Origin: Anaerolinea sp.
Lineage (GTDB): Bacteria; Chloroflexota; Anaerolineae; Anaerolineales; Anaerolineaceae
Direction: 5' to 3'
Length of the DNA: 28,788 bases
Assembly: GCA_029975965.1 (NCBI GenBank)
Contig: JARKOV010000173.1
Coordinates: 1 to 28,788, forward strand
Below the pieces are notes generated by a model. The model ran no database searches and was not told the origin of the DNA. It saw only the letters and a list, made by a program, of their open reading frames with translations. Positions within the stretch are counted from its first letter, which is position 1. Each line of letters begins with the position of its first letter. Shown one piece after another: positions 7,759-26,560 of this stretch. The position numbers and the translations under genes are program-made.

Positions 7759-7833
7759 AGAGAGGGGTGGGCGACCGCCCGGTTGACTTTTCGGCTTGAT
7801 GCCCCATTGGCTGATGGGATTGAGGATTTCTAC

Positions 7834-9351
7834 ATGAACCTTTCTGATCTCGAAAAAATCCGGGTTGAAAAAATCGAGCGCATGCGGGCCGCCGGGATCG
7901 AGCCTTACCCGACGCGCAGCGAGGTGAGCCACACCACCGCCGAGAGCATCCAGCGCTTTCTCGCCGCCGAAGAGGCCGCCGGCAGCGAGCCGGCGCCGGT
8001 GGAGGTGACGGTTGGCGGGCGTTTGCGCTCGATGCGGTTGATGGGCAAGGTCTACTTCGCGCACATCGAGGACGGGCACGGGCGGCTGCAGCTCTTTTTC
8101 CGCGTCAACGACGTGGGTGAAGCCGGCATGGAGCAATTCCGCGAATACTTCGATCTGGGCGACTTCATCCAGGCCAGCGGAGCGATGTTCCGCACCCGCT
8201 CGGGTGAGGTGACCCTGCACGTGCGCAGCTTTAAAATGCTCGCCAAAGCGATCACCCCGCTGCCTGCCGCCAAGGATGAGGTGGTCGAGGGAGAGGTGGT
8301 GCGCCACGCGGCGCTCACCGACCCCGAGACGCGCTACCGCCAGCGCTACGCCGACCTAGCGGTCAACCCGGACGTGCGCGAGGTGTTCCGCGCCCGGGCG
8401 CGAACGGTCAAAGCCCTGCGCGATTACCTGGACGGGCTGGGCTTCCTGGAAGTGGAGACGCCCATCTTGCAGCCGCTCTACGGCGGGGCTGCGGCGCGCC
8501 CGTTCATCACTCACCACAACCAGCTCAAACAAGACCTCTACCTGCGCATCTCCTTTGAGCTCTACCTGAAACGGTTGATCGTGGGCATGCTCGACCGGGT
8601 CTATGAGATCGGGCGCGATTTCCGCAACGAGGGCGTGTCGTACAAGCACAACCCGGAGTTCACCCAGATCGAGTTTTACATGGCCTATGCCGATTATCTC
8701 AAGATCATGGAGATCACCGAAAACATGATCGCCTACGTGGCTGAGCAGGTGACCGGCAGCCGGGTGGTGACGTACAAAGGCAACCAGGTGGATTTCAACC
8801 CGCCCTGGCGGCGGCTGGAACTGCGCCAGGGGCTCCTGGAAGTGACCGGGATCGACATCGACGCGCACCCCGACGGCGAGTCGCTGGCGGCGGCGATGCG
8901 CGAGAAAGGCATGCAGCCCAGAGCGGGATATTCGCGCGGCAAGCTGATCGATTCCTTGCTGGGCGACTACCTCGAGCCGGCGATCGTCCAGCCGACCTTC
9001 CTCTACAACTACCCGCGCGACATCTCGCCGCTGGCTAAATCGCTGCCGGGTAATCCGCAGATCACCGAGCGCTTCGAAGGGTACGTGGCCGGGATGGAGC
9101 TGTGCAACGCCTTCAGCGAGCTGAACGATCCGCTCGACCAGGAGCAGCGCTTCCTGGAAATGGGACGGGATTACGAGACCGGGGACGAGGAGCGCCACCC
9201 GATGGACGAGGACTACCTGCGCGCCATGTCATACGGCATGCCCCCGCAGGGCGGGTTCGGGATGGGCGTAGACCGCCTGGCGATGCTGCTCACCGACCAA
9301 CACACTATCCGCGAGGTGATCCTCTTCCCGCACCTGCGCGACGTGGAATAG
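7834..9351 (+). CDS. lysS: Lysyl-tRNA synthetase, class II
   Basis: A 505-aa cytoplasmic enzyme that charges tRNA-Lys. An N-terminal OB-fold (about 55-150) for the anticodon precedes a class II catalytic domain. The catalytic domain has the motif 2 sequence FRNEGVSYKHNPEFT starting at residue 263 and the motif 3 sequence GMGVDRLAMLL with D480-R481. The segment YGGAAARPFITHHN is typical of LysRS. GAGG at 7822-7825 lies 8 nt before ATG 7834; an in-frame ATG at 7783 has no ribosome site. A TTGACT at 7783 has no matching -10, so its promoter is unclear; read-through past the greA terminator is possible. Length is normal. Confidence 0.96.
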   Translation: MNLSDLEKIRVEKIERMRAAGIEPYPTRSEVSHTTAESIQRFLAAEEAAGSEPAPVEVTVGGRLRSMRLMGKVYFAHIEDGHGRLQLFFRVNDVGEAGMEQFREYFDLGDFIQASGAMFRTRSGEVTLHVRSFKMLAKAITPLPAAKDEVVEGEVVRHAALTDPETRYRQRYADLAVNPDVREVFRARARTVKALRDYLDGLGFLEVETPILQPLYGGAAARPFITHHNQLKQDLYLRISFELYLKRLIVGMLDRVYEIGRDFRNEGVSYKHNPEFTQIEFYMAYADYLKIMEITENMIAYVAEQVTGSRVVTYKGNQVDFNPPWRRLELRQGLLEVTGIDIDAHPDGESLAAAMREKGMQPRAGYSRGKLIDSLLGDYLEPAIVQPTFLYNYPRDISPLAKSLPGNPQITERFEGYVAGMELCNAFSELNDPLDQEQRFLEMGRDYETGDEERHPMDEDYLRAMSYGMPPQGGFGMGVDRLAMLLTDQHTIREVILFPHLRDVE

Positions 9352-9354
9352 GCA

Positions 9355-9470
9355 GATTGTGTTCCAAGGATTCATTCCGATGTGGGCTTTGCCCCACATC
9401 GGAATGAAAATAAGATTGTGTAATTTATGCTCTGTAAAATGTGGGCTGTGCCCCACATTTTACAGAATAA
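9355..9470. repeat. Tandem pair of conserved-core, variable-arm hairpins
   Basis: Two units, each beginning GATTGTGT (9355 and 9414) followed 8-9 nt later by a hairpin. Unit 1 pairs 9371-9386 with 9393-9408 (16 bp, perfect) around CTTTGC. Unit 2 pairs 9431-9445 with 9452-9466 (15 bp, perfect) around CTGTGC. Both share the core TGTGGG-CTKTGC-CCCACA, while the outer 9-10 bp of the arms differ completely between units. They sit between the convergent lysS and pfkA genes. No T-tract follows on either strand. Confidence 0.85.
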
Positions 9471-9511
9471 AAGAAACGCAATCGAAAATAAATCCCACCA
9501 TCGGTATTGCG

Positions 9512-10492
9512 TCAGCGCGCCAGCATGCGCGCCATCTTGATGTATTCCTGGCTGATCGTTTTCTGGTGCGAGACGACCTGCGAGAGCGGCAGGGGTTCGA
9601 TCTCGCGCCCGACCAGGGCGGTCATCACCCCCGTTTGACCGGCGAGCAGGAATTCGACCGCGCGGACGCCAAAGCGGGTGGCGAGGAAGCGATCGAACGC
9701 GGTCGGCTTGCCGCCGCGCTGCACGTGTCCCAGCACGGTGACCCGCGTGCTGAACCCCAGGTTCAATTCCTCGATCTTTTGCGCCAGCGCGCTGGCGTTC
9801 AAGGCTGCACCCTCTGCCACGACGATGATGCAGTGCGATTTGCCGCGCTTGTAGGCGTCATCCACCGTGGTGACCACTTCGTCGAAGGGCGTCTCGGTCT
9901 CGGGGATGATGACCAGCTCGGCGCCGGTGATGATGCCGGCCTGGATGGCGAGGTAACCGCAGGCGCGCCCCATCGTTTCGACCAGGAAGGCGCGGTTGTG
10001 AGAGGAGGCAGTGTCGCGCAGCTTGTCGATGGCGTCGACGATGGTGTTCAGGGCGGTGTCCACCCCGATGCACATGTCGGTGCCGTAAATGTCGTTGTCG
10101 ATGGAGGCCGGCACGCCGACCACCGGCACCCCTTGCGCCATGAGCGCCATGCCCCCGTTGAGCGAGCCGTCGCCGCCGAGGATCACCAGCGCATCGATGC
10201 TGCCGTTGTTGAGGTTGCGGATGGCCTTGCGCTGACCTTCCGGCGTTTTAAACTCCATGCTGCGCGCCGTGCGCAGGATGGTGCCCCCGCGCTGCAAGAT
10301 GCCGCCCACGTCGCGCGGGCCTAGCTCGCGAAAGCGCCCGTTCAACAACCCTTCGTAACCGTCATCGATGCCGACCACGCGCAGACCGTTGGCCAGGCCC
10401 GTCCGGACCACCGCGCGGATGCCCGGATTCATGCCGGGCGCGTCGCCGCCGGAAGTCATCACGCCGATCGTACGAATGTTTGAGCGAAACAT
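9512..10492 (-). CDS. pfkA: ATP-dependent 6-phosphofructokinase
   Basis: A 326-aa glycolytic kinase that phosphorylates fructose 6-phosphate. It has the ATP-site loop TSGGDAPGMN (residues 13-22) and GGDGS at 106-110, where a Gly in the middle favours ATP over pyrophosphate. The catalytic PASIDNDI segment carries D132; Ser replaces the usual Thr two residues before the catalytic Asp. GAGGG lies shortly before the start codon on the minus strand. The gene begins 21 nt after the end of dnaE, so the two are probably cotranscribed. Confidence 0.95.
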   Translation of the reverse strand: MFRSNIRTIGVMTSGGDAPGMNPGIRAVVRTGLANGLRVVGIDDGYEGLLNGRFRELGPRDVGGILQRGGTILRTARSMEFKTPEGQRKAIRNLNNGSIDALVILGGDGSLNGGMALMAQGVPVVGVPASIDNDIYGTDMCIGVDTALNTIVDAIDKLRDTASSHNRAFLVETMGRACGYLAIQAGIITGAELVIIPETETPFDEVVTTVDDAYKRGKSHCIIVVAEGAALNASALAQKIEELNLGFSTRVTVLGHVQRGGKPTAFDRFLATRFGVRAVEFLLAGQTGVMTALVGREIEPLPLSQVVSHQKTISQEYIKMARMLAR

Positions 10493-10513
10493 AGGCTTCC
10501 CTCGCCAGAAAGA

Positions 10514-13500
10514 TTAGTGAATGCGTAAGGGCTCGATACGGAGGTTTTCTTCTCCCACCAGCTCGACCAGTTTCTGGATGAGCTGGGGCGAAATGCCGGT
10601 GGGATCGTTGGGAAATTCCAACTGGAATTGGCGGCTGCCCTCAAAAATCAGGAAGGCAAAGCGGTCGTGCCCGGGGAAGGAGCGCAACCGCCCATAGACC
10701 ATGCGCAGGCGGCGGACATCCCGCTCGCGGTCGCCGGTCGAGCGCAGGATGACGGTCACGATGCGCGGGTCGTTGCTCTCTTGAGAGGCGTGCTGCAGCA
10801 GCGGCGAGACGAAGAAGGGAGCGGGGGGCACCGGCAGCCCGGCGGCGGTCGCGGCGCGCTGCGGGGCGGCGGCGGGCAGGTCCTCGGGCTCCAGGCGCGA
10901 CTCGGGCACAGGGGTCGCGCCGGGTGCGGCATCTGGCGGCAGATCCACCTCTTGCGCCGCATCGGCGGCTGCCAGCCACTCCGGCACGTGCTGGTCCCAG
11001 TCGGGGGGCTCCTCAGGTGGGACAAGCTCCCCGGGCGCGTCGGCAGAGGTAGACGGCCTGGCCGGTTGCGCGACGGACTCGGGCGACTGCGCCTGCGGTG
11101 CGGCCGGGGCATAGACGGGGGCTTGTTGGACGGGTCGGGGGGCGTGGTTGAGCAGTCCTTCGGCAACGCGGCGAGCTTCACCGGGCGCCGGGACGTACGC
11201 CAGGCCTTCTTCTTCGTCCGACGGCAGGTAATCCTCGCCAAAGGGCGCCTCGGCTGCGGCAAAATCTGCGCCGGAGCTGGCTTCCTGCATGGCGTCTTCC
11301 AGCGACACCTCGACCAGCCGGTCGACCAGCACCTTTGGGTCGCCGCCCTGGTTATCGACCTTGCCCTCGGCGATCAACACGGCGTCGGCCTGGACGAGCA
11401 GGTGGTACCTGTCCCAGGCTTTGGGGAAGATCACCAGATCGAGGTTGCCCTGGATGTCTTCCAGGGTGACGAAGCCCATCGCATCGCCCTTCTTGGTCTG
11501 GTGGTTGCGGTAGCGCGTGACCATTCCGGCAACCGTCACCTGGGCGCGGTCGCGCACCTCGTGGAGCTGGCCCGAAAAATGCGACACCTTGCGTTTCAGG
11601 TAGGGCAGGTAGGGGCTGAGCGGGTGATCAGAGACGTACAAGCCGAGCAGCTCGCGCTCCCATTCCAACTGCTCGCGCGAGTCCATGCCGGGCGTGTAAG
11701 GCAAAACGATGCTGTCCTCGACGCCGGCGATGCTGCCGAAGAAGCTCAACTGCCCGCTCTGCACCGCGCGGAAATGGCTGGCGCTGACGGAGAGCACGTG
11801 GTCGAGCACCTCGAGCAGCGAGCGCCGCGCGCCAAAAGCGTCCAGCGCGCCCACTTTGACCAGGCATTCCAGCGGTCGCTTGCCCAGCGCGCGCAGGTCG
11901 ACCCGCGAGGCGAAGTCGTTGATGCTGGTGAAAGGGCCTTTTTCTCTGCGCGCCTGCAGGATCATCTCCGCAGGAGCCTGGCCGACATTTTTGACCGCGC
12001 CCATGCCAAACCGGATGGCGGCCGTCCCATCCGGCAGGTCTTCGATGCTGAAATCGTATTCGCTGGTGTTGATGTCGGGCGGGAGGACGGCGACGCCCAT
12101 GGCGCGGCAGTCGGCGGTGTAGAGGGCCACCTTGTCCGAGTCGCCTTTGGAAGCCGAGAGCAGGGCGGTCATGTACTCGACGGTATAATGCGCCTTGAGG
12201 TAAGCGGTCTGCACGGCGATCACGCCGTAATCGGCGGCATGAGCCTTGGGGAAGCCGTAGCGAGCGAAGTTCTCCCAATCGTCGAAGATGGCCGTGGCGG
12301 TCTCTGCGGGGATGCCGTTGGCCTGCGCCCCGGCGATGAATTTCTCGCGGTGCTTGAGCAGCACGTCGGCCTTTTTCTTGGCGATCGACTTGCGCAGCTC
12401 GTCGGCCTCCGAAGCGGTGTAACCCGCCAGGTTGACCGCGGCGCGCATGATCTGCTCCTGGTAGACCGGGATGCCGAAGGTCTCGCAGAAGATCGGCTCC
12501 AATTTTTCGTGAATGTACTCGACCGGTTCCTCGCCGTGCATGCGCCGGATGTACTTGGGGATGAACTCCAACGGGCCGGGACGGTAGAGCGCGACCATGG
12601 CGATGACGTTGTCCAGGTTGCGCGGGCGCATCTGCACCAGGAAGCGCGTCATCCCCGTGCCTTCCAACTGGAAGACGCCAGCGGTGTGACCCTGGCTGAG
12701 AAATTCGAAGGTCTGCGGGTCGTCGAGGGGGATGTTGTTGAGGTTGAAGCGCACGCCGTGGCGCTCCTCGATCAGGTCGCAGGCGCGCTGCATGACGGTC
12801 AGCGAGGCCAGCCCGAGGAAATCTACCTTGAGCAGGCCGAGCGAATCGATGATCGACATCTCGAATTGGGTGACCGTCTTGATCGGGCTGTCTTCCGCGC
12901 CGGAAGTCGGCCGGCTGAGCGGCACGTAACGAATCATCGGCTCGTCGCTGATCACCACCCCCGCGGCGTGGGTGCCGGCGTTGCGCACGGCGCCCTCCAT
13001 GCGTCCGGCGGTGTCGATCAGCTCGCGCAGGTATTCCTGCTCGTCGTAGGCATGTTTTAAATCGGGCACCTGCTCGAGGGCTTCTTGCACGGTGACCGGT
13101 TTTCCGGGGATGTTGGGGATCAGTTTGCTGACCCGGTCGACCTCAGCCAGGGGAATGTCCATCACACGCCCCACATCGCGGATGGCGGCGCGCGCGCCGA
13201 GCGTGCCAAAGGTGATGATCTGCGCCACGCGGTCCGCGCCGTAGCGGTCGGAGCAGTAGGCCATCAGCTCGGAGCGGCGGTCGTCCTGGAAATCCATGTC
13301 GATATCGGGCATGGAGATGCGCCCCGGGTTGAGGAAGCGCTCGAAGATGAGCCCGTGGACGAGCGGCTCGATCAGGGTGATATCGAGGGTGTAGGCGACC
13401 ATCGAGCCGGCCGCCGAGCCGCGCGCGTTGTACCAGATGCCGCGATCCCGCGCCTCGCGGCACAGGTCCCAGACGATGAGGAAGTAGGCGTCGAAGCCCA

Positions 13501-14494
13501 TCTGGTGGATGATGCCCAGCTCGTACTCAAGGCGCTGGCGCACTTCAGGGTCTGCACTGCGCGCGCCATAACGACGCTGCAGGCCCTCTTCGCACAAGGC
13601 GCGCAAGTAGGTTTCGGGGGTGTGCCCATCGGGGACTTCGAAACGGGGCAGGTGGTAGCCTTTGGGCGAAAGGTCGACCTCGCAGCGCTCGGCGATGAGC
13701 AGGGTGTTGCTGAGCGCCTCGGGGATCTCGGCGAACAGGCGGCCCATCTCCTCCGGCGAGCGCAGGTAGAAGGAGTCCACGCTCATCCTGAAGCGGTTCG
13801 GCTCGGTGAGCAGGTTGCCGGTCTGGATGCAGAGCAGGATGTCTTGCAGGCGGGCGTCTTCGGGTTGGATGTAGTGCACGTCGTTGGTGGCGATGTATCG
13901 CGCGTTGTAGCGCTTGCCAAGCTGCAGCAACCCACGGTTCACTTCCTGCAATTCGGCGATCTGGTGCTCTTGCAACTCGAAGAAGTAGCGATCGGGGCCA
14001 AAGACCTCGTAGTAAAAGTCGAGCAGCTTCGCCGCCGCCTCGGGGCCTTTTTCGCGCAGGGTGCGTGGCACCTCAGACGACATGCAGCCGGTGGAACAGA
14101 TCAAGCCCTCGGAGTGGGCGGCGAGGAATTCATGGTCGATGCGCGGATAGTAGTAGAAACCGTCCAGTTGCGCCGCGCTGGCGATCTGGAGCAGGTTCTG
14201 GTAGCCGGTCTGGTTCTCCGCCAGCAGCAAGAGGTGGAAAGACTGCTTATCCAGCTTGACGTCTTTGTCCTTCATCCCGCGCGCAGCCAGGTAGGCTTCG
14301 AGACCGATGATCGGCTTGACTCCGTTGGCGTGGGCGGCATTGAAGAATTCAATCGCGCCGAACATGGTGCCGTGGTCGGTGAGAGCCACCGCCGGCATGC
14401 CCAGCTCTTTGGCCCGCGCGGTGAGCTTCTTGACATCCGAGAAGCCGTCGAGCAGCGAGTACTGCGAGTGGACGTGGAGGTGGACAAAGGACAT
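10514..14494 (-). CDS. dnaE: DNA polymerase III alpha subunit, DnaE1 type
   Basis: A 1326-aa replicative polymerase. It starts with the PHP domain (HLHVHSQYSLLDG), then the polymerase core with catalytic aspartates in PDIDMDF, the tandem HhH region, and an OB-fold (about 1000-1060, VTVAGMVTRYRNHQTKKG). A Pro/Ala/Glu-rich linker of about 175 residues (about 1065-1240) then leads to a final folded block of 87 residues. This tail is longer than in E. coli DnaE. The ATG at 14494 is chosen because homology begins at MSFVHLHVHS; upstream in-frame sequence to 14593 would overlap the promoter. The start lacks a clear ribosome site. pfkA follows 21 nt downstream. Confidence 0.96.
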   Translation of the reverse strand: MSFVHLHVHSQYSLLDGFSDVKKLTARAKELGMPAVALTDHGTMFGAIEFFNAAHANGVKPIIGLEAYLAARGMKDKDVKLDKQSFHLLLLAENQTGYQNLLQIASAAQLDGFYYYPRIDHEFLAAHSEGLICSTGCMSSEVPRTLREKGPEAAAKLLDFYYEVFGPDRYFFELQEHQIAELQEVNRGLLQLGKRYNARYIATNDVHYIQPEDARLQDILLCIQTGNLLTEPNRFRMSVDSFYLRSPEEMGRLFAEIPEALSNTLLIAERCEVDLSPKGYHLPRFEVPDGHTPETYLRALCEEGLQRRYGARSADPEVRQRLEYELGIIHQMGFDAYFLIVWDLCREARDRGIWYNARGSAAGSMVAYTLDITLIEPLVHGLIFERFLNPGRISMPDIDMDFQDDRRSELMAYCSDRYGADRVAQIITFGTLGARAAIRDVGRVMDIPLAEVDRVSKLIPNIPGKPVTVQEALEQVPDLKHAYDEQEYLRELIDTAGRMEGAVRNAGTHAAGVVISDEPMIRYVPLSRPTSGAEDSPIKTVTQFEMSIIDSLGLLKVDFLGLASLTVMQRACDLIEERHGVRFNLNNIPLDDPQTFEFLSQGHTAGVFQLEGTGMTRFLVQMRPRNLDNVIAMVALYRPGPLEFIPKYIRRMHGEEPVEYIHEKLEPIFCETFGIPVYQEQIMRAAVNLAGYTASEADELRKSIAKKKADVLLKHREKFIAGAQANGIPAETATAIFDDWENFARYGFPKAHAADYGVIAVQTAYLKAHYTVEYMTALLSASKGDSDKVALYTADCRAMGVAVLPPDINTSEYDFSIEDLPDGTAAIRFGMGAVKNVGQAPAEMILQARREKGPFTSINDFASRVDLRALGKRPLECLVKVGALDAFGARRSLLEVLDHVLSVSASHFRAVQSGQLSFFGSIAGVEDSIVLPYTPGMDSREQLEWERELLGLYVSDHPLSPYLPYLKRKVSHFSGQLHEVRDRAQVTVAGMVTRYRNHQTKKGDAMGFVTLEDIQGNLDLVIFPKAWDRYHLLVQADAVLIAEGKVDNQGGDPKVLVDRLVEVSLEDAMQEASSGADFAAAEAPFGEDYLPSDEEEGLAYVPAPGEARRVAEGLLNHAPRPVQQAPVYAPAAPQAQSPESVAQPARPSTSADAPGELVPPEEPPDWDQHVPEWLAAADAAQEVDLPPDAAPGATPVPESRLEPEDLPAAAPQRAATAAGLPVPPAPFFVSPLLQHASQESNDPRIVTVILRSTGDRERDVRRLRMVYGRLRSFPGHDRFAFLIFEGSRQFQLEFPNDPTGISPQLIQKLVELVGEENLRIEPLRIH

Positions 14495-14597
14495 AGGCGG
14501 TTGGCAGTCGAGTTTCGGAAGTTGGCGGTCGGTGGCGAATGTGCGCCGGACGCCGGCGTGAGGCGATTGTGGGAGGGGAGCGCCCCCTGACACGATT

Positions 14598-14606
14598 ATT
14601 ATAGCA
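14598..14606 (-). promoter_or_regulatory. Extended -10 promoter of dnaE
   Basis: On the minus strand this reads TGC-TATAAT, a perfect extended -10. No -35 is recognisable 17 nt upstream, which extended -10 promoters tolerate. Transcription would start near 14591, giving a leader of about 97 nt. Confidence 0.6.
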
Positions 14607-14709
14607 ATTTATGCCCGGCGGCTTTCTAAGAAAATGGGTGATTTCACGGGTGATCCGCGCCGGAGCTTGAAGGACTCATTATACCTGAGGCGGGCGGAGG
14701 GGAGTCTTA

Positions 14710-14782
14710 AAGAATTGAAGAATGAGGAGTGAAGAATTGAAGAATTGAAGAATGAAGAATGAAGAATGAAGAATGAGGAATG
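14710..14782. repeat. AGAATGA/AGAATTGA microsatellite
   Basis: About nine head-to-tail copies of the heptamer AGAATGA or octamer AGAATTGA, with two variant units. It lies in the gap between the dnaE promoter and the end of the copper genes (14495-14831), which otherwise holds no gene. Low-complexity tracts like this expand and contract by slippage. Confidence 0.85.
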
Positions 14783-14831
14783 ATCGATGGGGAGCGGTGA
14801 TTGGGCAACGAAAATCGTAAATTTACAATAT

Positions 14832-15050
14832 TCAATTTCCCGTTTCTGCCGCAGTATATCCCAGGGCGGCGATCGCCGCGCGCAGGTCGTCTATGCTGAC
14901 CTGCCCCTCGTCGTATTCGACCTCCAGGGTCTGCCGGTGGTAGCTGCCTCGGATGCGGCGGATGCCGTCCAACTCGTCCTCGATGCCCTCGAGGCGCATC
15001 ACGCAATTCGCGCAGTGCATGTCGGGAATGGAAAAGGTGGTTTTCGCCAT
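14832..15050 (-). CDS. CopZ-like heavy-metal-associated (HMA) protein
   Basis: A 72-aa protein that is a single ferredoxin-like HMA domain. The metal loop is MHCANC with C13 and C16. The closing GYTA is typical of copper chaperones. Its start codon overlaps the stop of the TauE/SafE-cupredoxin gene by one base (TAATG on the minus strand), so translation is probably coupled. It likely binds Cu(I) in the cytoplasm and exchanges it with the membrane partner. The ATG at 15050 is chosen by homology; an upstream in-frame extension to 15206 lies wholly within the neighbour gene. Confidence 0.9.
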   Translation of the reverse strand: MAKTTFSIPDMHCANCVMRLEGIEDELDGIRRIRGSYHRQTLEVEYDEGQVSIDDLRAAIAALGYTAAETGN

Positions 15051-16165
15051 TATTGGAAGATGATCTCGCCGGTGAACATGCCCATCGAGCAGGTGAACTG
15101 CATCCGCGTGCCGGCTTTTTGGGGTGGGATCTCCAGCGTCTCGACGCCGGTAGCCGGCAGTAAGGCGGAGAGGTCGAGACCGGGGATGATGAAGGCGCGC
15201 GCGCACGAGTAGGTGCCTTTGGTCACCAGGTTGAGCGTCAGGGTCGTATTGGCCGGGGCGCGCACCCGGTTGGGGGTGTAGCCGTAATCGCCCGCCTCGA
15301 TGGTGATGGTGTCGGCGGAGAGCGGCGTGGCATCCTGCTGGGTGAAGGCGTCGACGCCGGGCGGGGCGAAGGTCTCGAGGCGCTTATCCGGCGAGAGCGC
15401 GCCCGCGATGGCTTGCGGGATGCGCGAGAGCGTGACGGGCGAGCCCATCAGCGCCAGGCCGGTGTCGAAGGTCCAGATGCCCAGGAGGATCAGCGCCACC
15501 GCGGCGACGCGGTTGAAGTTCTTCTCCAGCAGCCCGCCCAGGCGCGTCGCCAGGTAGGTGAGGCCGAAGAAGACCGGGCTGGTGCCCAGGGTGAAGGCGA
15601 AGAGGATCGCCGCGCCCATCAGCGGGTTGGCGGTGCCCACCGCCAGCGCCATCATCGACTGGGTCACCCCGCAGGGGATGAGCACGGTCAGCGCGCCGAG
15701 CAAGAGCGGGGTGAGCGCGCCGGATTTTTTCGAGCTGCGCCGGATGTAGCGGGTGACCCGCGATGGCGGCTCGAAGGTGAAGTAGCGGAAGATGGGGTGC
15801 ACGTTGAGCATGCGCAGGGCGTTGCCCAGCATGAAGATGCCGATAGCGGCCTGCAGGATACCGCGCATGAGCGGCGTGAGCGAAAGCACCGAGCCGAGCG
15901 CGCCGAGCATGAATCCCAACAAGGTGTAAGCGACCAGCTTGGCGAGCAGGAAGAGCAAGATGGGCTGCGCCAGCTCGGCTTTTTGGGGCGGCGCGACTGT
16001 GGCTCCTCTGGCTTTCTTCCCGCTGCCGGAGGTCTGTTTCTGTTGCAACTGGGCTTCCAGTTGATTGGCAAGGGAGGTGGTGATCAACCCGCCCTGGACG
16101 AGCATGCAGCTCAAGCCGCCGGTGGTGATACCGGTAATCAGCGCGGCGAGAAGGACGTTATCCAT
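15050..16165 (-). CDS. TauE/SafE (UreH/DsbD-like) membrane protein with C-terminal cupredoxin domain
   Basis: A 371-aa protein with about six membrane helices (near 5-25, 74-96, 102-120, 147-175, 181-205, 215-237). The PCGVTQSMMALA segment in helix 4 is like the UreH/DsbD/CcdA superfamily. Residues about 285-371 form an outward-facing cupredoxin-like domain with possible copper ligands in TYSCARAF and in the closing CSMGMFTG (C359, M361, M363). The gene overlaps the HMA-protein gene by one base, which supports a copper transport or detoxification role. Export versus delivery cannot be told from sequence. A Lys/Gln-rich cytoplasmic loop lies at about 36-65. Confidence 0.85.
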   Translation of the reverse strand: MDNVLLAALITGITTGGLSCMLVQGGLITTSLANQLEAQLQQKQTSGSGKKARGATVAPPQKAELAQPILLFLLAKLVAYTLLGFMLGALGSVLSLTPLMRGILQAAIGIFMLGNALRMLNVHPIFRYFTFEPPSRVTRYIRRSSKKSGALTPLLLGALTVLIPCGVTQSMMALAVGTANPLMGAAILFAFTLGTSPVFFGLTYLATRLGGLLEKNFNRVAAVALILLGIWTFDTGLALMGSPVTLSRIPQAIAGALSPDKRLETFAPPGVDAFTQQDATPLSADTITIEAGDYGYTPNRVRAPANTTLTLNLVTKGTYSCARAFIIPGLDLSALLPATGVETLEIPPQKAGTRMQFTCSMGMFTGEIIFQ

Positions 16166-16260
16166 AAAAAATTATTTCTCCTGGCATCCAATGCATCTAT
16201 TATACGCGAACTGTAACACGATCAATAGGATAATTTATGTGCAATTCTGGCGGATAAATG

Positions 16261-16758
16261 TCATCTGTTTGGGCGGGGCGCCGGCGGTTCTGAAACGAGG
16301 GCGAGGTTCTTCGGGCCGCGGAAGCCCAGCGTGACCCGCTCGAAGGGCACCGCGTGGGCGCGGTAATACTGCTCGATGGCGTCGAGCAGCTCGTACTGCC
16401 CCAGCTTCTCTTCCGACCAAAAATTGCAGCACGGCACCAGGATCACCGGGCGCGTCAGCGCGCTGGCGGCGACCTCGCGCAGCGCCTCGTCACAGTGCAG
16501 CCCGACGACCAGGTCATAAATAGAGGCAAGGCGGGCGGTGTATTCTTCGGCGCGGTTGCGCACCCCGGTGAGCACGTGGCCGCGCGGGTCGATCACCTCC
16601 GCTGCAAAATGGTATTTCTTCGCCAGGATTCGCGCCAGCATGCCCTGACCGCCAGCCACATCGGCGATGTAGCGCACGCGCCCCCAGTAGCGCCCGGCGA
16701 TGAAATCTGCCAGCACCTCAAAGCGGGCCGGGTCGCCGTGGAATTTATGGCGCGCCAT
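16261..16758 (-). CDS. Methyltransferase-like (Rossmann) protein
   Basis: A 165-aa protein with a SAM-binding-like motif I (IADVAGGQGMLARILA, residues 31-46), an acidic second strand (AEVIDPR, 53-59), and the segment GLHCDEALREV followed by VPCCNFW. The last two resemble the LHxCG and PCC motifs of the RRNAD1/Methyltransf_32 group. It is short for a full methyltransferase but contains the core fold. The substrate is unknown. It lies 18 nt after the DUF3592-like gene and may share its transcript. Confidence 0.7.
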   Translation of the reverse strand: MARHKFHGDPARFEVLADFIAGRYWGRVRYIADVAGGQGMLARILAKKYHFAAEVIDPRGHVLTGVRNRAEEYTARLASIYDLVVGLHCDEALREVAASALTRPVILVPCCNFWSEEKLGQYELLDAIEQYYRAHAVPFERVTLGFRGPKNLALVSEPPAPRPNR

Positions 16759-16776
16759 CGGGTTGCAAATGGGGGA

Positions 16777-17226
16777 TCAGCTATCCAGGTAGGCTTCTTT
16801 GACGGCGGTGTCTTTGGGCCGGTCCGGGTTGACCAGCAGCACCACCCAGTCGCCTTCTTTGATCTTGCGGGTGCGGCGGTTGGTGTGCAGGTGGTTGACC
16901 GAGCGCAGCTTATCCTTTTTGATGCCGTACTCCACCACCACCTGCCCGCGGTCGCGGTAAAAGGAGGATTTGACCACCTTGCCGCGCACCTCCTGCCCGC
17001 CCTCGAAAATCTGGCGGATGCGCAAGAAACGCCACAGCACCAGTCCCAGCGCCACCAGGGTCACCGCCCCGGCCAGGATCAGGTAAAACTGCTCGTCGCG
17101 GAAGCTCCAGTTGAAGATCTTGAAGAGCAGGAAGATGCCCCACAGCGTGCCGATGGTGGTGGCACAGAAGGTGGAGAGATAGTCGGTGTCCAGGATACGC
17201 CAGAAGGTGGGGGTGGGTTTGTCCAT
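16777..17226 (-). CDS. Two-helix membrane protein with DUF3592-like domain
   Basis: A 149-aa protein with two membrane helices (about 24-38 and 48-68). A soluble domain of beta strands follows, with GKVVKSSFYRDRGQVVVEY and a final VVLLVNPDRPKDTAVKEAYL, the pattern of DUF3592 proteins. Function unknown. The ATG at 17226 is preferred to an in-frame TTG at 17232; neither has a clear ribosome site. Confidence 0.65.
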   Translation of the reverse strand: MDKPTPTFWRILDTDYLSTFCATTIGTLWGIFLLFKIFNWSFRDEQFYLILAGAVTLVALGLVLWRFLRIRQIFEGGQEVRGKVVKSSFYRDRGQVVVEYGIKKDKLRSVNHLHTNRRTRKIKEGDWVVLLVNPDRPKDTAVKEAYLDS

Positions 17227-17283
17227 GAGCAAATAATGGATGATGAAAATTGAATGCCGGATGAGCTAGTGGTCGGTCAGGTT

Positions 17284-17336
17284 GATTTTGATGGGTTATT
17301 TTGGGGGCGAAGCCCCCAAAATAACCCATCAAAATC
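17284..17336. repeat. 25-bp perfect inverted repeat, 3-nt loop
   Basis: Arms 17284-17308 and 17312-17336 are exact reverse complements around GAA. The inner core is GGGGGC-GAA-GCCCCC and the outer arms are AT-rich. It lies in the 218-bp gap between two minus-strand genes. No T-tract follows on either strand. The rest of the gap (17227-17444) shows no gene. Confidence 0.92.
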
Positions 17337-17444
17337 CATTTTACACAGCACTAGAGACTATTGTATCAGCTTTGGAAAGGAATTTGAAATTGCTCAAGAG
17401 CCAGAGGCCCGAGAAGCCCGAAAGGATGGCGACGGCCCGTTGTT

Positions 17445-18512
17445 TTACGGTTCGAGGACGATGAGCAGCGAGGAGAGCGCCACGTTGCCGGGGATGCGGC
17501 TGCCCTCCTGGCGCAGGGTCAGGCGCACCGGTGTGGGCGCATCGACCTGGTAGGGAACCTCGACCAGGAAAGGCGTGTGGCTCTGGTCGCCGCCGGGCGG
17601 CTCGACCTGGAAGCTCTGCGCGGCTACCAGCCGCCCGTTCTCGGCGATCAATTCCACGATGACCGGCGAATTGTTGACCGGGCGCGCCAGCCCGCTGATC
17701 AACAGCGACCCGCCGCGCACGATCTGCTGCCCCTGGGGGAAACGCACGATGTAGGGCTCCTGGGTCAGGTCGGGGGCGAAGATTTCGGCGCGCCCCACCC
17801 GCAGCAGCACCAGTTCCACCGAGGTCAGGTAGATGATGCGCCCGTAGCGGTCGCGGGTGGAGACCTGCAGCCGCCCGGTTTCGGCCATCGAGGTGATCTG
17901 GAAGGTCACTTCGGGGTAGAAGGCAATCGAGCGCCCGAGGTACTGGGTGTAGTTGTTGTCCGCGCGGTAGAGCGTGCGCCCATCCTCGCCGAGCAGCTCC
18001 AGGCGGACGAAGCCATCCTCGCCGGGCACGGCGTAAATCTCGGCCTGCACCGGCGATACGACGCGCGAGAGCAGCCCCGGCCGGTCGATGTAGAGCACCG
18101 GCGGCGGCGGGGTGGGCGTGTTGGTGATGGTCGGCGTGCGCGTGATGGTCGGCGTTCGGCTGGGCGTGCGCGTGAGGGTGGGGATGCGCGTGCGCGTGGG
18201 GGTGCGGGTGGGGGTGAAGGTGCGGGTGGGAGTCGGGCTGGGACCCGGGGTGGGCGTATCGGTCGGAGGCGGCGTGGCGGTGGGGGTGTCGCTGGCTTCG
18301 GCGGTGTGGGTCGGGCCGCGGGTGGGGGTGAGCGGGACGGGGGTGATCGAGGCGGTGAGGGTCGGCACGGGGGGCAGGGTGCCCGTCTCGGTCGGCAGCG
18401 GCGAGGGCGTGGCGGTGAGCAAATTGGCGAGCGAGACCGGCCCGCCGCAGCCCGCCAGCAGCAGAGCCAGCAGCGCGAGGAGAAGCACCCGTCTCCCGTC
18501 GCTGGATCTCAT
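17445..18512 (-). CDS. Lipoprotein with Thr/Pro-rich stalk and Ig-like domains
   Basis: A 355-aa secreted lipoprotein. A signal sequence ends in the lipobox LLAGC with C22 as the acylated residue. Residues about 34-140 are a Thr/Pro/Arg-rich stalk built on TPT repeats. The remaining 215 residues form one or two beta-rich domains, the last resembling Gmad2 Ig-like domains (GGSLLISGLARPV ... PVRLTLRQEG). It is probably attached to the outer face of the membrane with the domains held out by the stalk. It starts 1 nt after the LLM oxidoreductase stop. Exact function unknown. Confidence 0.8.
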   Translation of the reverse strand: MRSSDGRRVLLLALLALLLAGCGGPVSLANLLTATPSPLPTETGTLPPVPTLTASITPVPLTPTRGPTHTAEASDTPTATPPPTDTPTPGPSPTPTRTFTPTRTPTRTRIPTLTRTPSRTPTITRTPTITNTPTPPPPVLYIDRPGLLSRVVSPVQAEIYAVPGEDGFVRLELLGEDGRTLYRADNNYTQYLGRSIAFYPEVTFQITSMAETGRLQVSTRDRYGRIIYLTSVELVLLRVGRAEIFAPDLTQEPYIVRFPQGQQIVRGGSLLISGLARPVNNSPVIVELIAENGRLVAAQSFQVEPPGGDQSHTPFLVEVPYQVDAPTPVRLTLRQEGSRIPGNVALSSLLIVLEP

Positions 18513-18513
18513 C

Positions 18514-19383
18514 TCAACCGGCCAGGCGGGGGGCGACCTCGCGCATGAACCGACGCATGGCCCGCTCGCGCTCGGGTTGGCTCTCGGCGATGAAGTGCAG
18601 CGCGGCGTAGCCGGCGCCGGCCTGGTTAAAGGCCTGCAAGCCGGCGGCTACCTCGTCGGGGTTGCCGGCGAGCTGGACGTTTTCGCGCGCCTCGCCATCC
18701 AGCGCGACGGAGATGCGCGGGGCCACCTCGAAGGGGCGTCCGGCCAGCAAGGGGCGAATGACGCGCAGCATGGCGGCGATCTGCTCGGGGGCGATGCCGG
18801 TCGGGTGCCAGCCGTCGGTGAGCAGGGCGGCGCGGCGCAGCGCGCGCGGCGAGTTGCCCGCCGTCCACAGCGGAGGCCCGCCAGATTGCACCGGCCCGGG
18901 GGCAAACTGGGCGCGCTCGAAGCGGTAGTGCTGCCCCTGGTACGAGATGATTCGCCCGCCGCGCCAGAGCGTGCGCAGCACCATGATGGCTTCGTCCATG
19001 CGCTTGCCGCGGTTGGTGAACTCGTAGCCCAGGTTGGCGTACTCGCCCTTCGACCAGCCGATGCCAAGCGCCAGCACCACCCGCCCGCCGGAGAGCACGT
19101 CCAGCGTGGCGAGCACCTTGGCCATCTCGACCGGGTTGCGCTGCGGCAGGATGAGCGCCGAGACCCCCAGGCGGATGCTGCCGGTGCTGGCTGCCAGATA
19201 GGCGAGGGTGGTGACGGCTTCCAGGATCGGCGTGTAGGTGGCGCCGTCGCTTTCGGGCTGCACCATATGGTCGGTGGTCCAGACCGAATCGAAGCCCAGG
19301 CTTTCAGCGGCCAGCGCGGTGTCCAGCACGGCCAGCCGACCGGCTTGTGGTCCGTAATTGGGGAGGATGATGCCGAATTTCAT
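18514..19383 (-). CDS. LLM-class flavin/F420-dependent oxidoreductase
   Basis: A 289-aa luciferase-like TIM barrel. It begins MKFGIILPNYG and carries SLGFDSVWTTDHM and GRVVLALGIGWSKGEY, typical of F420-dependent LLM-class enzymes. Substrate unknown. The ATG at 19383 begins the conserved first strand; seven extra residues up to 19404 would lie within an intergenic hairpin. It lies between the M32 carboxypeptidase and the lipoprotein genes on the same strand. Confidence 0.88.
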   Translation of the reverse strand: MKFGIILPNYGPQAGRLAVLDTALAAESLGFDSVWTTDHMVQPESDGATYTPILEAVTTLAYLAASTGSIRLGVSALILPQRNPVEMAKVLATLDVLSGGRVVLALGIGWSKGEYANLGYEFTNRGKRMDEAIMVLRTLWRGGRIISYQGQHYRFERAQFAPGPVQSGGPPLWTAGNSPRALRRAALLTDGWHPTGIAPEQIAAMLRVIRPLLAGRPFEVAPRISVALDGEARENVQLAGNPDEVAAGLQAFNQAGAGYAALHFIAESQPERERAMRRFMREVAPRLAG

Positions 19384-19395
19384 GAGGTGGTGAGG

Positions 19396-19431
19396 CGGGG
19401 GCATACGAGCGCTTGCGCCCGTATGCCCCCG
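19396..19431. repeat. 12-bp hairpin between carboxypeptidase and LLM genes
   Basis: CGGGGGCATACG (19396-19407) pairs exactly with CGTATGCCCCCG (19420-19431), with a small inner stem in the loop. It lies just after the carboxypeptidase stop on the minus strand. No T-tract follows, so it may stabilise the mRNA end or attenuate rather than fully terminate. Confidence 0.75.
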
Positions 19432-19440
19432 GCAGGTAGA

Positions 19441-20943
19441 TTACAGCCCGTAAATCTGGCTGTACTTGGCTTTCAGGTAGCGCAGGAAAGGCTGCGGGTC
19501 GATCTTGGAGCCGGTCACTTTTTGCACCAGCACTTGCGGCTCGTAAATCGCGCCGTAGCGGTGAATATTCTGGCGCAGCCAACCGAGCAGCTCCGCGAAC
19601 TCACCGCTCTCGGTCTGCTGTTCGAGGTTGGGCAGGTCTTTCTGGATTTTCTCCCACAGTTGCACCGAGACCAGGTTGCCCAGGGCGTAGGTGGGGAAGT
19701 AACCGATGTACCCGCTAGACCAGTGCACATCTTGCAGCACGCCCTGCGCGTCGTTGGGCGGGGTCAGGCCGAGGTAATCCTGCATGCGCGCGTTCCAGGC
19801 GGCGGGCAGGTCTTTGACCTCCAGGCTGCCCTCCATCAGGGCGATCTCCAGCTCGAGGCGCAGCATGATGTGCAGGTTGTAGGTGGCCTCGTCTGCCTCC
19901 ACGCGGATGAGCGAAGGCTGGACGCGGTTGATCGCCTTGTAGAAAGCCTCCAGGCTGACGTTGGCGAGCTGGGTGGGGAAGCGCTCGCGCAGCCGCGGGT
20001 AGAAGTGCCGCCAGAAGGGCAGCGAGCGCCCGACCAGGTTCTCCCACATGCGCGACTGGGATTCGTGCACCGCCATCGAAGCGCCGTTGGCCAGCGGGGT
20101 GCGGCGCAGCGCCGGGTCGAGGCCCAGGTCGTAGAGGGCATGACCGCACTCGTGCATCGTGCCAAAGAGCATCGTGTTGAGGAAGTTGGGATCGACCCGC
20201 GTGGTGATGCGCACGTCGCCCGCGCCGAAGGAGGTGGTGAAGGGGTGGGCGGATTTATCCTGCCGGCCGCGCTGCCAGTCGTAGCCGAAACGGGTGATCA
20301 CCTCGACGCCGAAGTCCCACTGGTCCTGCTCGGGGAACTCCTGGTGCAGGAAGCTCGAATCAACCTGCGGGCGGGCGGCGATCGCCTTGACCAGCTCGAC
20401 CTGTACCGGGCGCACCTGGGCAAAAATAGCCTGCACTTCGGCGGTCTTCATACCCGGCTCGAAGTCGTCCAGTTGTGGATCGTAAACATGGTCGTAGGGG
20501 GCAAAGAAGGTCGAGTATTCGCGGCGCAGTGCGATGATCTTTTCCAGGTGGGGTTGGAAGAGGGGGAAATCGTTGGCCTTGCGCGCTTTGATCCAGGCTT
20601 CTTGCCCGAGGGTGGTTTGTTGGGCGAACTCGTCCACCCAGCGCGACGGCACGCGCACGCGTTTGTCATACTGGCGGCGGGTGACGCGCAGCAGCGCCGC
20701 GGTCTGGTCGTCGGGGGGAAGCTGGGCGGCCTGCGCTTCGAGATCCGCCAGGAGCTCTCCCATTTCCGGAGAAGTCCAGCGCTCATGCTCGAGGCGCGCC
20801 AGGGTGGCGAGCTGGTTGCCGCGGTCTTCTGCGCCGCCCGGCGGCATTTGCGTCTGCTGGTCCCAGCCGAGAACGGCCTGGGCGTGAAACAAATCGTCGA
20901 TTTCGGCCAGGATGGCCTTGAAACGGGTCAATTTTTCCTGCAT
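19441..20943 (-). CDS. Metallocarboxypeptidase, M32 family (Taq type)
   Basis: A 500-aa, mainly helical cytoplasmic carboxypeptidase. It has the zinc motif HECGH at 264-268, the third ligand E294 in HESQSR, and the family segment IRVEADEATYNLH. It removes C-terminal amino acids with broad specificity. Length is normal (about 500). It lies 53 nt downstream of the serA-like gene. Confidence 0.95.
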   Translation of the reverse strand: MQEKLTRFKAILAEIDDLFHAQAVLGWDQQTQMPPGGAEDRGNQLATLARLEHERWTSPEMGELLADLEAQAAQLPPDDQTAALLRVTRRQYDKRVRVPSRWVDEFAQQTTLGQEAWIKARKANDFPLFQPHLEKIIALRREYSTFFAPYDHVYDPQLDDFEPGMKTAEVQAIFAQVRPVQVELVKAIAARPQVDSSFLHQEFPEQDQWDFGVEVITRFGYDWQRGRQDKSAHPFTTSFGAGDVRITTRVDPNFLNTMLFGTMHECGHALYDLGLDPALRRTPLANGASMAVHESQSRMWENLVGRSLPFWRHFYPRLRERFPTQLANVSLEAFYKAINRVQPSLIRVEADEATYNLHIMLRLELEIALMEGSLEVKDLPAAWNARMQDYLGLTPPNDAQGVLQDVHWSSGYIGYFPTYALGNLVSVQLWEKIQKDLPNLEQQTESGEFAELLGWLRQNIHRYGAIYEPQVLVQKVTGSKIDPQPFLRYLKAKYSQIYGL

Positions 20944-20996
20944 ACCTCATCCTTTTCGTCGAAGGTGCGGCCGTCGCGTGGCGGTCGATGGGTTGA

Positions 20997-21938
20997 TTAA
21001 ATCACTCGCCAGCGCAGCGGTTCGCCCTTTAGCGCGGCGATGATCTCGGTGGCGATGTCATACCCGGCGCGCGCCTGGGCCTCCTGCGTCTGCGCGCCGA
21101 TATGCGGCGTGCAGATCACCCGCGGGTGGTTGACCAGGGGCGATTCCCCCGGCGGCTCGGCGGCGAACACGTCCAGGGCCGCCCCGGCCACCTTGCCGGA
21201 CTCGAGCGCAGCCAGCAGGGCTTCTTCATCGACGATTCCACCGCGCGCGGCGTCCACCAGGTAAACGCCCGTCTTCATCTTGCTGAAGGCGGCTGCATCG
21301 AGCATGTTCTTGGTCTCGTTGGTCAGCGGCAGGTGGAGCGAGATGAAATCGGATTCGGCCAGGAGCTGCTCGAAGGAGACCGGCTGCCCGCCGCGCTCGA
21401 GGATGCTCTCGGCGGCTTTCAGGCGGTCGTAGGCGACGATGTTCATGCCGAAGGCCTTCGCGCGGTCGGCGACCGCCGAGCCAATGCGCCCAAAGCCGAT
21501 GATGCCGAGCGTCTTGCCGTACAGCTCGGCGCCTTCGAGCTCCTTTTTCAACCATTTGCCGGATTTCATCGAGCCGTCGGCGCGCGGGATTTCGCGCACC
21601 AGGCTGAGCATCAGGCCGAGGGTCAGCTCGGCGACGGTGACCGTGGTCGCCAGCGGCGAATTGACCACGCGCACGCCGTGCGCCTTGGCCGAGTTGAGGT
21701 CGATGTTGTCCACGCCGATGCCAGCGCGCCCGACCACCTTGAGCGCGGTGCCTGCGTCGAAGACGGCGGGGGTCACCTTGGTGCGGCTGCGCACGATCAG
21801 CGCGTCGTACTGGCCGATTTCCTTGAGCAAGTCCTCCGCCGACAATCCGTTGCGGTCGGCGACATCGCCGATCTCGCTCAGCAGGGCCTTGCCTTTGGCG
21901 TCCAACCCGTCGGTAATGAGAATTTTCCACCCACTCAT
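20997..21938 (-). CDS. D-3-phosphoglycerate dehydrogenase-type 2-hydroxyacid dehydrogenase
   Basis: A 313-aa NAD-dependent dehydrogenase. The nucleotide loop is GFGRIG (148-153), with D171 as probable NAD-ribose ligand. The catalytic set is R232 (ARGGIVDE), E261 (FAAEPP) and H279 (PHIGAQT). It lacks the C-terminal ACT or ASB domains of long SerA proteins, so serine feedback through them is absent. It may act in serine synthesis, but short forms in this family can use other 2-hydroxyacids. GGAGGAGG lies before the ATG. Confidence 0.88.
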   Translation of the reverse strand: MSGWKILITDGLDAKGKALLSEIGDVADRNGLSAEDLLKEIGQYDALIVRSRTKVTPAVFDAGTALKVVGRAGIGVDNIDLNSAKAHGVRVVNSPLATTVTVAELTLGLMLSLVREIPRADGSMKSGKWLKKELEGAELYGKTLGIIGFGRIGSAVADRAKAFGMNIVAYDRLKAAESILERGGQPVSFEQLLAESDFISLHLPLTNETKNMLDAAAFSKMKTGVYLVDAARGGIVDEEALLAALESGKVAGAALDVFAAEPPGESPLVNHPRVICTPHIGAQTQEAQARAGYDIATEIIAALKGEPLRWRVI

Positions 21939-22071
21939 ACAGAGCCTCCTCCATGCGTTGTTTAGTTCGCTTGTGAGCGTATCTTTGCCATGATTTTACC
22001 TTACATCTTGCCAAAGCGCCCGCATCCCAACCCTTCTCCCACGGGGAGATGGGCTGATGGATGGCGGATTG

Positions 22072-22080
22072 TGCTAGAAT
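22072..22080 (+). promoter_or_regulatory. Extended -10 promoter of the DUF3109 gene
   Basis: TGC-TAGAAT (5 of 6 consensus, extended). Transcription would begin near 22087, only about 3 nt before the ATG at 22090, and no ribosome site is present. This suggests a leaderless or nearly leaderless mRNA. No -35 is clear. Confidence 0.5.
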
Positions 22081-22089
22081 CGAGCCACC

Positions 22090-22650
22090 ATGCCAGCCAG
22101 GCCGCTCAACCCGCGCGCGATTAACCCGCGCCTGCTCGAATCCGAGCGGGTGCAGCGCTGCCGTTTGAGCGAGTGCCGGGGCGCCTGCTGCCTGCACGGC
22201 GTGTGGATCGACCTGGCCGAGCGAGACGACCTGCTGGCGCACGCCGGGTTGATCGCGCCGCACCTGCCGCCGGCATTGCGCGATCCGGCAGCCTGGTTCG
22301 ACGGTCGCCAGGAAGCGGATGAGTTCGCGCCGAGCGGCGCGGTGGTGCACAGCAACGTGCTGCCCGACGCGGCGCACTACGGCGGGACGGCCTGCGTGTT
22401 CCTGCGCGAGGATTACAAATGCGCGCTGCAGGTGGCGGGGCAGGCAGCCGGGCTGCATCCCTGGCGATTCAAGCCTTTTTACTGCGTGCTGCACCCGCTG
22501 GACCTGGACGAGCAGGGGCGCATCACGCTGGACGAAACCTCCGCATTGCTGGCGGAGGAAGGCAGTTGCCTGCGCCCGGCGCAACGACCCATCCCGCTGC
22601 GCGAGACGTTCAAGGAAGAGCTGGACTATCTGGCGGGAGATCCATTTTAG
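22090..22650 (+). CDS. DUF3109 / YkgJ-like cysteine-cluster protein
   Basis: A 186-aa protein with eight cysteines: 24, 29, 33, 34, 102, 111, 132 and 160. The first four (CRLSECRGACC) are the hallmark of the YkgJ/DUF3109 group, thought to bind zinc or an Fe-S centre. Function unknown. A predicted extended -10 lies 10 nt upstream and there is no Shine-Dalgarno sequence, consistent with leaderless translation. It is divergent from the serA-like gene. Confidence 0.82.
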   Translation: MPARPLNPRAINPRLLESERVQRCRLSECRGACCLHGVWIDLAERDDLLAHAGLIAPHLPPALRDPAAWFDGRQEADEFAPSGAVVHSNVLPDAAHYGGTACVFLREDYKCALQVAGQAAGLHPWRFKPFYCVLHPLDLDEQGRITLDETSALLAEEGSCLRPAQRPIPLRETFKEELDYLAGDPF

Positions 22651-22689
22651 ATCGACGTGTATCTGGCGAGGAGCCAAAGGAGGCTTGCG

Positions 22690-23607: not shown

Positions 23608-23628
23608 AACAGGTGCGGGTTATCGGAG

Positions 23629-23671
23629 ATGGGGCAAAGCCCACATTTTGCTGAAAATAAATTACACAATC
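23629..23671 (-). repeat. Degenerate copy of the hairpin repeat at the DMT gene start
   Basis: The reverse complement contains the core ATGTGGGCTTTGCCCCAT (missing 2 nt of one arm) preceded by the 15-mer GATTGTGTAATTTAT. The same 15-mer stands in front of the second hairpin at 9414-9428. The outer arm is no longer complementary. The copy overlaps the N-terminal codons of the DMT permease. Confidence 0.75.
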
Positions 23672-25079: not shown

Positions 25080-25080
25080 A

Positions 25081-25299
25081 TCAACGCACCAGTTGCAGGA
25101 GCGTGGTCTGCACCGCAGGCCCGGCGACCAGCACGCCGACGACCACCCCAGCCAGGCTGAGGATGAAGGCGGGTGCCGACCGCTCGAAGTGCGTCACCAG
25201 GTAAACCCATTGGACCGGCGGGAATAACAGGCAACCCACACCCCACCACACATTGGTCTTGAACGCCAACGCCAGAAACCAGATGGTCCTGGCTTGCAT
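25081..25299 (-). CDS. Small two-helix membrane protein
   Basis: A 72-aa protein with two membrane helices (about 5-33, with WWGVGCLLFPPVQWVYLV, and about 45-65). The pattern KTNVWWGVGCLLFPP resembles small hypothetical membrane proteins in other bacteria. It is convergent with the HD gene, with 1 nt between. The ATG at 25299 is preferred to an in-frame TTG at 25308; no ribosome site is clear. Confidence 0.55.
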   Translation of the reverse strand: MQARTIWFLALAFKTNVWWGVGCLLFPPVQWVYLVTHFERSAPAFILSLAGVVVGVLVAGPAVQTTLLQLVR

Positions 25300-25331
25300 C
25301 AGAATCAAATGGACCCAATGGACTCGGGTGC

Positions 25332-25360: not shown

Positions 25361-25397
25361 TGGTGATGGTGATCGGTGTAACAGGCAGGGAGACCGC

Positions 25398-26412: not shown

Positions 26413-26417
26413 CTTCG

Positions 26418-26520
26418 ACATGAATCACCCCGAACATTAAATTCGGGATGATTCATGTGGAGCTTTGGATCTCGCATGTTAATTTCGGTCAATGTGGGCT
26501 TTGCCCCACATTGATCGAAA
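26418..26520. repeat. Two further hairpins, one of the conserved-core type
   Basis: Arms 26418-26434 and 26442-26458 pair over 17 bp with one mismatch around CATTAAA. Arms 26483-26498 and 26505-26520 pair over 16 bp with one G-T pair around CTTTGC; this one has the same TGTGGG / CCCACA core as the hairpins at 9371-9466. The whole gap 26130-26560 contains no gene. It lies between the convergent response regulator and aldo/keto reductase genes. Confidence 0.85.
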
Positions 26521-26560
26521 ATTTAAACCCCCCCGTTTTTAGCGGAGATGAGCGAAAACT

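Follow-up and report, generated by a model that had tools for sequence, protein, structure and literature searches.

Hairpins of an Anaerolinea contig as probable copies of a 70-bp mobile element with covarying arms

Hairpins and nested elements in the window

The DNA under study, here called the window, is a stretch of 28,788 nucleotides from a contig of Anaerolinea sp. It carries three hairpins with the common core TGTGGG-CTKTGC-CCCACA (Table 1). Hairpins 1 and 2 lie between the convergent genes lysS and pfkA, and hairpin 3 lies between a response-regulator-like gene (+) and an aldo-keto reductase gene (-), which are likewise convergent. A. thermolimosa and other Anaerolineaceae headed the best 80 relatives listed for LysS. 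An ORF for the DNA polymerase III alpha subunit (10514-14593, minus strand, 1359 aa) is also present; the NCBIfam DnaE models end at about residue 1100 and leave some 260 C-terminal residues unmatched.

Table 1. Genes, hairpins, elements and direct repeats in the window
Feature	Position	Strand	Description
lysS, lysine-tRNA ligase	7783..9351	+	ORF; true start may be later
element 1, left part	9355..9413	.	left end GATTGTG; holds hairpin 1; split by element 2
hairpin 1	9371-9408	.	16-bp arms, 100% complementary; 6-nt loop
8-bp direct repeat GAAAATAA, left copy	9406..9413	.	target duplication of element 2
element 2, complete 70-bp copy	9414..9483	.	GATTGTG...CGCAATC
hairpin 2	9431-9466	.	15-bp arms, every position paired
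8-bp direct repeat GAAAATAA, right copy	9484..9491	.	target duplication of element 2
element 1, right end	9492..9502	.	ATCCCACCATC
pfkA, 6-phosphofructokinase	9512..10492	-	convergent with lysS
proposed element 3, decayed	26467..26536	.	contains hairpin 3; shared core and arm likeness to L186
hairpin 3	26483-26520	.	16-bp arms, one G-T

An earlier note on this DNA had described three hairpins of near-identical geometry, with G-T as the sole non-Watson-Crick pair and no T-tracts. All of this was confirmed: arms measure 15-16 bp around a 6-nt loop, the one G-T is in hairpin 3, and a terminator scan of 8000-27999 found no site at any of the three. A known RNA family was rejected as well: at gathering scores, Rfam matched nowhere in the window. 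Folded as a single DNA strand, hairpin 1 was better than 200 of 200 dinucleotide shuffles (z -8.1), as were both strands of 9414-9483 (z -8.6 and -6.4); for 26467-26536 (z -4.4) one of 200 shuffles was equally good.

The same hairpin scan found five more strong hairpins in the window, all lacking the core. Four of them (117-160, 19396-19431, 26283-26334 and 26418-26458) have arms of 16-24 bp and differing tips. The fifth, at 17266-17354, is long, with 43-nt arms that are 84% complementary, the tip GGGGGCgaaGCCCCC and the ends CTAGTG...CACTAG; it scored about 30 bits with both element models described below and is possibly a short mobile element in its own right.

The hairpins had previously been treated as standalone palindromes, with the 38-nt hairpin as the unit. 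The hairpins are real, but the actual unit measures 70 bp, has ends of its own and is flanked by 8-bp repeats; the palindromes are parts of insertions that duplicated 8 bp of target, and one of these insertions sits inside another. Hairpin 2 is enclosed by a longer, 32-nt imperfect inverted repeat that spans element 2. When element 2 was excised together with one of the direct repeats, element 1 was rejoined at exactly 70 bp, and its ends then agreed with the family consensus from the related genome G013 at 19 of 26 positions. In the uncut sequence, none of 28,718 windows exceeded 17 matches, a value reached at element 2 itself. These results show that element 2 inserted into element 1, that is, one copy jumped into another. 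Element 1 had no clear target duplication, and element 3 no clear flanking repeat. The gap between lysS and pfkA comprises 160 bases, 12 of which lie outside the elements or the duplication.

The 70-bp element family in a related genome

G013 is one of five genomes assigned to the genus of A. thermolimosa. A first model was built from 17 aligned copies, 15 from G013 and 2 from the window. Its search of G013 gave 150 rows on both strands (150 of 826 first-look candidates were scored), representing at least 86 distinct loci. Fifteen further copies were aligned, of which 7 lay in the surroundings of the 86 loci and 8 were located with an end pattern; the copies in G013 thus number at least 101. 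Their consensus reads GATAGTGTTTCAATTTTTCTGTAAATTGTGGGG-C(TT or AA)G-CCCCACAATTTACAGAAAAAGATACACACGATC. The unit is 70 bp long; its inverted ends are imperfect and span about 13 nt each, and the hairpin in its centre has 19-20 bp and a conserved TGTGGGG tip. The end helix paired in 73.7% of cells in an alignment of 44 copies and in 67.2% in that of 17 copies.

At the 86 loci, with shifts of up to 2 nt allowed, flanking 8-bp repeats were perfect in 33 cases and had one mismatch in 26, which makes 59 with at least 7 of 8 positions identical. Re-paired flanks gave expectations of 0.08, 1.1 and 1.2, respectively. The repeats are a target-site duplication of constant length. Two copies (around 3504 in L148 and in L170) sit inside other palindromes that resemble hairpins or terminators. 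A target preference for palindromes was discarded as weak: a score of at least 10 was reached at 3 of 59 insertion sites versus 0.4% of random positions, and the mean score (4.55 versus 4.18) shows a small excess over random.

BLAST of the lysS-pfkA region matched element 2 at dispersed places in G013, and several of the matches reached beyond the core to span the ends and the flanks of hairpin 2. The closest match (L140, around 3504) has the flanking repeat GAAAATAG, a target almost identical to that in the window; like element 2, this copy may adjoin an older element end. The claim that the outer arms are unrelated between loci holds inside the window but fails across the wider family. Hairpin 2 has arms that agree with the consensus of the family (TCTGTAAAAT versus TCTGTAAATT), and for hairpin 3 a similar pair of arms exists in one G013 copy, L186 (TTTCGATCAAATGG).

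Because the first model included window copies, a second one was made that used 44 copies from G013 alone and was therefore not circular. With this model element 2 scored 58.5 bits (E 3.5e-11 for the full window), the hairpin at 17272-17348 30.5 bits (E 1e-4), element 3 25.5 bits (E 0.0014) and hairpin 1 alone 17.8 bits (E 0.078, not significant). Since the 17272-17348 hairpin outscored element 3, part of such model scores reflects hairpin shape alone; and since hairpin 1 alone was weak, the assignment of element 1 depends on its restored ends. The ends of element 3 were at chance (7 of 26 consensus positions, null mean 6.9), and its membership, which rests on the shared core and the arm resemblance to L186, is less certain.

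Could the window hairpins instead be independent palindromes whose GC-rich tip is shared by convergence? The arms of hairpins 1 and 3 are far from the G013 consensus, neither hairpin 1 alone nor the ends of element 3 reached significance, and Pseudomonas REPs likewise have GC cores with a CTTG tip (PMC3116915). We nevertheless regard convergence as quite improbable, given the match of element 2 to a model free of window copies and the matching ends that element 1 regains, at exactly 70 bp, once element 2 and one repeat are removed. We conclude that two of the hairpins, and probably the third also, are copies of one short mobile element.

A 14-base core was absent from nine of the ten relatives tried first. 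With at most one mismatch, an 18-base core turned up in three of the family's 147 genomes, at ten places in G013, one in G066 and one in G008. Under stricter filters that lose weak matches, the first model hit 5 of the 147 family genomes at E 1e-4 and, at E 1e-6, two of 400 genomes sampled from the order. Many strong matches occurred only in G013 among the genomes searched; outside it the first model reached at most 52.5 bits (ten rows in G055, two each in G007 and G008, one in G012). The G007 locus L206 has the layout of the family with a different arm. G055 has several copies of a hairpin that is built alike but differs in its arms and its tip (TTGTTGGGGAAAGCCCAACAA in L207; also L210 and L212; at most 45.5 bits), possibly a related family. 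An IMG/VR match (L081; 19.7 bits, E 0.019) was dropped as a copy.

The mobilising transposase was not found in G013 among the IS256, IS1595 and ISL3 families and the neighbourhoods of Y1 transposases. The first three were rejected as parents, as PF00872, PF12762 and PF01610 had no match in this genome. Y1 transposase gave three matches, two above the cut-off, and no element copy was present in about 3 kb around each. Single-ended matches were also rejected as ends of a larger element: of the five adjoining ORFs, one encodes a trypsin/PDZ protein, one a SIS-domain protein, and the remaining three had no Pfam match. In L215 two ends face each other in inverted orientation at a distance of 3 kb; this pair was set aside as well, one of the ends being that of an ordinary copy.

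Arm covariation and tip orientation

Arm changes were counted over 19 arm pairs in 96 copies. Of the 86 loci, 82 entered this count, four with a core match below 32/40 being left out; of the 15 further copies, 14 entered and one was left out. The earlier note had held that the arms vary yet stay complementary, an idea that it would have given up if the outer arms aligned as a conserved sequence across most copies. That condition applies in part: the arm columns are 78-99% conserved among the 82 copies, and the arms are variants of one consensus rather than free. The variation itself is nonetheless mirrored, so that the idea survives in a milder form: changes matched on both arms filled 94 cells of 38 types, compared with a mean of 12.3 cells (maximum 24) and 9.1 types (maximum 19) in 1000 shuffles of one arm among copies, where the copies are kin by descent, no tree is used and cells are not independent. 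Fifteen of the 38 types were private to one copy, and the rest may be shared by descent. One-sided changes, at 209 cells, exceeded the mirrored ones. Eight copies had at least two mirrored and zero one-sided changes (shuffle mean 0.02, maximum 1). Examples of mirrored variants are L154 (CTATCCATT), L220 (CTTCAGATT) and L186 (CGATCAAATGG), with the opposite arm matching in each.

The smaller alignments were also examined. For that of 44 copies, 58 of the 86 passed the filter and 28 failed it; a further 14 were left out from among the 58, which makes 42 unused copies in all. In this alignment all five measures were above 500 of 500 shuffles. When partners were slid by 3 columns, the number of both-side cells was 26 and 32 versus 26 for the true pairing, and the covariation score was 0.148 for the true pairing versus at most 0.074 for any slid one. 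In the 17-copy alignment the score was above all 500 shuffles; pairs changed on both sides were unremarkable (7 versus 6.0 in shuffles).

The 4-nt tip occurred in both orientations. With the 86 copies oriented by their unequal ends, it was CTTG in 28, CAAG in 27, TTTG in 8, CAAA in 5 and otherwise in 18. After 20 copies with unclear ends had been left out, the 66 clearly oriented copies had CTTG and CAAG in 24 each, TTTG in 2, CAAA in 3 and others in 13. CATG and CTAG, the one-step intermediates between CTTG and CAAG, were found in none of the 86 copies. Where two copies agreed at 22 or more of the 26 end positions, their tips were inverted in 38 pairs, equal in 34 and otherwise different in 54. 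Inversion was also seen within one recognisable sub-family (L147 and L183 versus L197).

Paired arms could be kept by selection on transcripts at each locus if the hairpins were transcription terminators or other RNA hairpins. The setting between convergent genes that the earlier note had stressed applies to all three window hairpins, and L001, L002 and A. thermolimosa (L003) have hairpins with A/T-rich flanks after lysS, in the last case between lysS and pfkA and without an element there, while the lysS-pfkA gap of the window holds nothing else. Extracts of PMC8794818 further describe CTTG tips as stable in RNA as well as DNA. This setting is not general, however. By a home-made ORF caller, 75 of the 86 G013 copies were intergenic, lying in 52 co-directional, 12 convergent and 11 divergent gaps; such gaps make up 61%, 20% and 19% of gap length, respectively, and copies thus had no preference for convergent genes. 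On the transcribed strand the tip was CAAG in 18 and CTTG in 17 copies, and one-sided changes giving G-T or A-C stood at 66:63, neither with a bias; in rRNA, CUUG is eight-fold commoner than its reverse complement (PMC8794818, in part). Selection on RNA, one of the two causes that the earlier note had offered, found no support in these ratios. Taken together, the missing T-tract and the lack of both convergent preference and strand bias lead us to reject terminators as a general reading and make a general RNA role unlikely; we consider an RNA explanation of the pairing highly improbable. The copies between lysS and pfkA may themselves serve as transcript ends, because little else lies in the gap: two copies nearly fill it, and a transcript end that depends on a hairpin would have to be there.

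Selection might also act on the element itself, as has been proposed for REPINs, if only well-folding copies were mobilised, a change in one arm were offset in the other ahead of the spread of its lineage, and one-sided changes were later decay. Mirrored changes per copy were independent of the intactness of the flanking repeat (0.74 at 8/8, 0.85 at 7/8 and 0.96 at fewer), as if they predated insertion. One-sided divergence of the arms was similar in size to the divergence between flanking repeats and could therefore be decay after insertion. For REPINs, PMC3116915 calls compensatory changes common, and length and hairpin capacity critical. Such selection gives no reason for a tip inverted in half of the copies, though, and copies with perfect repeats were equally mismatched (1.81 one-sided mismatches per copy, versus 1.69 at 7/8 and 1.96 at fewer), so that mismatches do not obviously block insertion, unless the copies are similar in age. 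We regard this as a strong rival, if on the whole a rather unlikely one.

The other cause offered by the earlier note was the copying of one arm onto the other. The excess of mirrored changes and the parity of tip orientations fit it, while selection for a foldable element still competes. Transitions and transversions numbered 37 and 57 among mirrored cells and 129 and 80 among one-sided cells, a transversion richness that agrees with what PMC8604942 remarks about template switching in bacteria. This excess was gone on distinct types (16 and 22 versus 37 and 40; p 0.56) and was discarded as support for template switching.

The reading that we favour as on balance probable is that of a MITE-type, non-autonomous 70-bp family of Anaerolinea-like bacteria whose arms are matched mainly by template switching and of which one copy is nested in another. 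The family duplicates 8 bp of its target on insertion, as shown in G013 and for element 2. At an extruded hairpin, the polymerase would now and then switch template and copy one arm onto the other, which would turn a mutation of one arm into a matched pair or erase it; a switch to the opposite strand would also invert the 4-nt tip. Transposition may additionally favour copies that fold well. Template switching between short inverted repeats is described to lead to both arm homogenisation and spacer inversion (PMC8604942, in excerpt). Passages of PMC8794818 report CTTG loops as stable in DNA and RNA alike and as enriched in rRNA hairpins with instantaneous compensatory changes (2.43% versus 0.01%), and loop inversions in rRNA that include bacterial cases. 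Our analysis suggests that template switching would be the best single account of arm homogenisation and tip inversion together.

It is also conceivable, though unlikely, that the element moves via a folded, self-templated intermediate, so that a jump could reset the arms to full complementarity and would randomise the orientation of the tip. If this were true, the family would be a transposon whose own replication step maintains its palindrome.

Comparison with known systems

Covarying stems are routinely taken as evidence for functional RNA. Here a family of mobile DNA covaries with no sign of strand-specific RNA selection and with a freely inverted tip, and it thereby calls for caution when RNAs are sought in bacteria by covariation. 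Its roughly 100 copies in a single genome offer a natural setting for gauging how often DNA replication itself makes compensatory changes. No description of this 70-bp family was found in the open-access literature as far as its texts were available; in such partial texts, A. thermolimosa appears in one table row (PMC12306157) and GTAG-tagged repeats are reported in Chloroflexi (PMC3733652).

Intrinsic terminators after lysS in the Anaerolinea relatives resemble the window copies in that L003 has a hairpin between convergent lysS and pfkA. Those hairpins have A/T-rich flanks and other sequences, whereas the window copies are insertions without T-tracts.

To our knowledge, REPs insert without target duplication, unlike this family with its 8-bp duplications. 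REPs and REPINs share with it dispersed extragenic palindromes, a GC core with a CTTG tip and compensatory hairpin changes (PMC3116915). In this family, by contrast, the tip and ends are conserved and the arms between them variable. An association with a Y1 transposase (RAYT), typical of REPs and REPINs, was looked for in the 3 kb or so around each Y1 match of G013, and no copy was seen there.

Footprints of template switching in short inverted repeats likewise combine arm homogenisation with inversion of a short spacer (excerpts of PMC8604942 and PMC8794818). The published cases are single events on a tree, whereas here a dispersed mobile family has its tip orientation at parity.

Bacterial MITEs are like this family in being short and too small for a transposase gene, in their inverted ends and target duplication of constant length (8 bp here), and in their many dispersed copies. 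No parent element was found among the transposase families searched. The family differs from MITEs in its length, 70 bp being below the roughly 100-400 bp quoted for them in PMC3116915, and in that most of the unit is one hairpin, with arms that covary and a tip that inverts.
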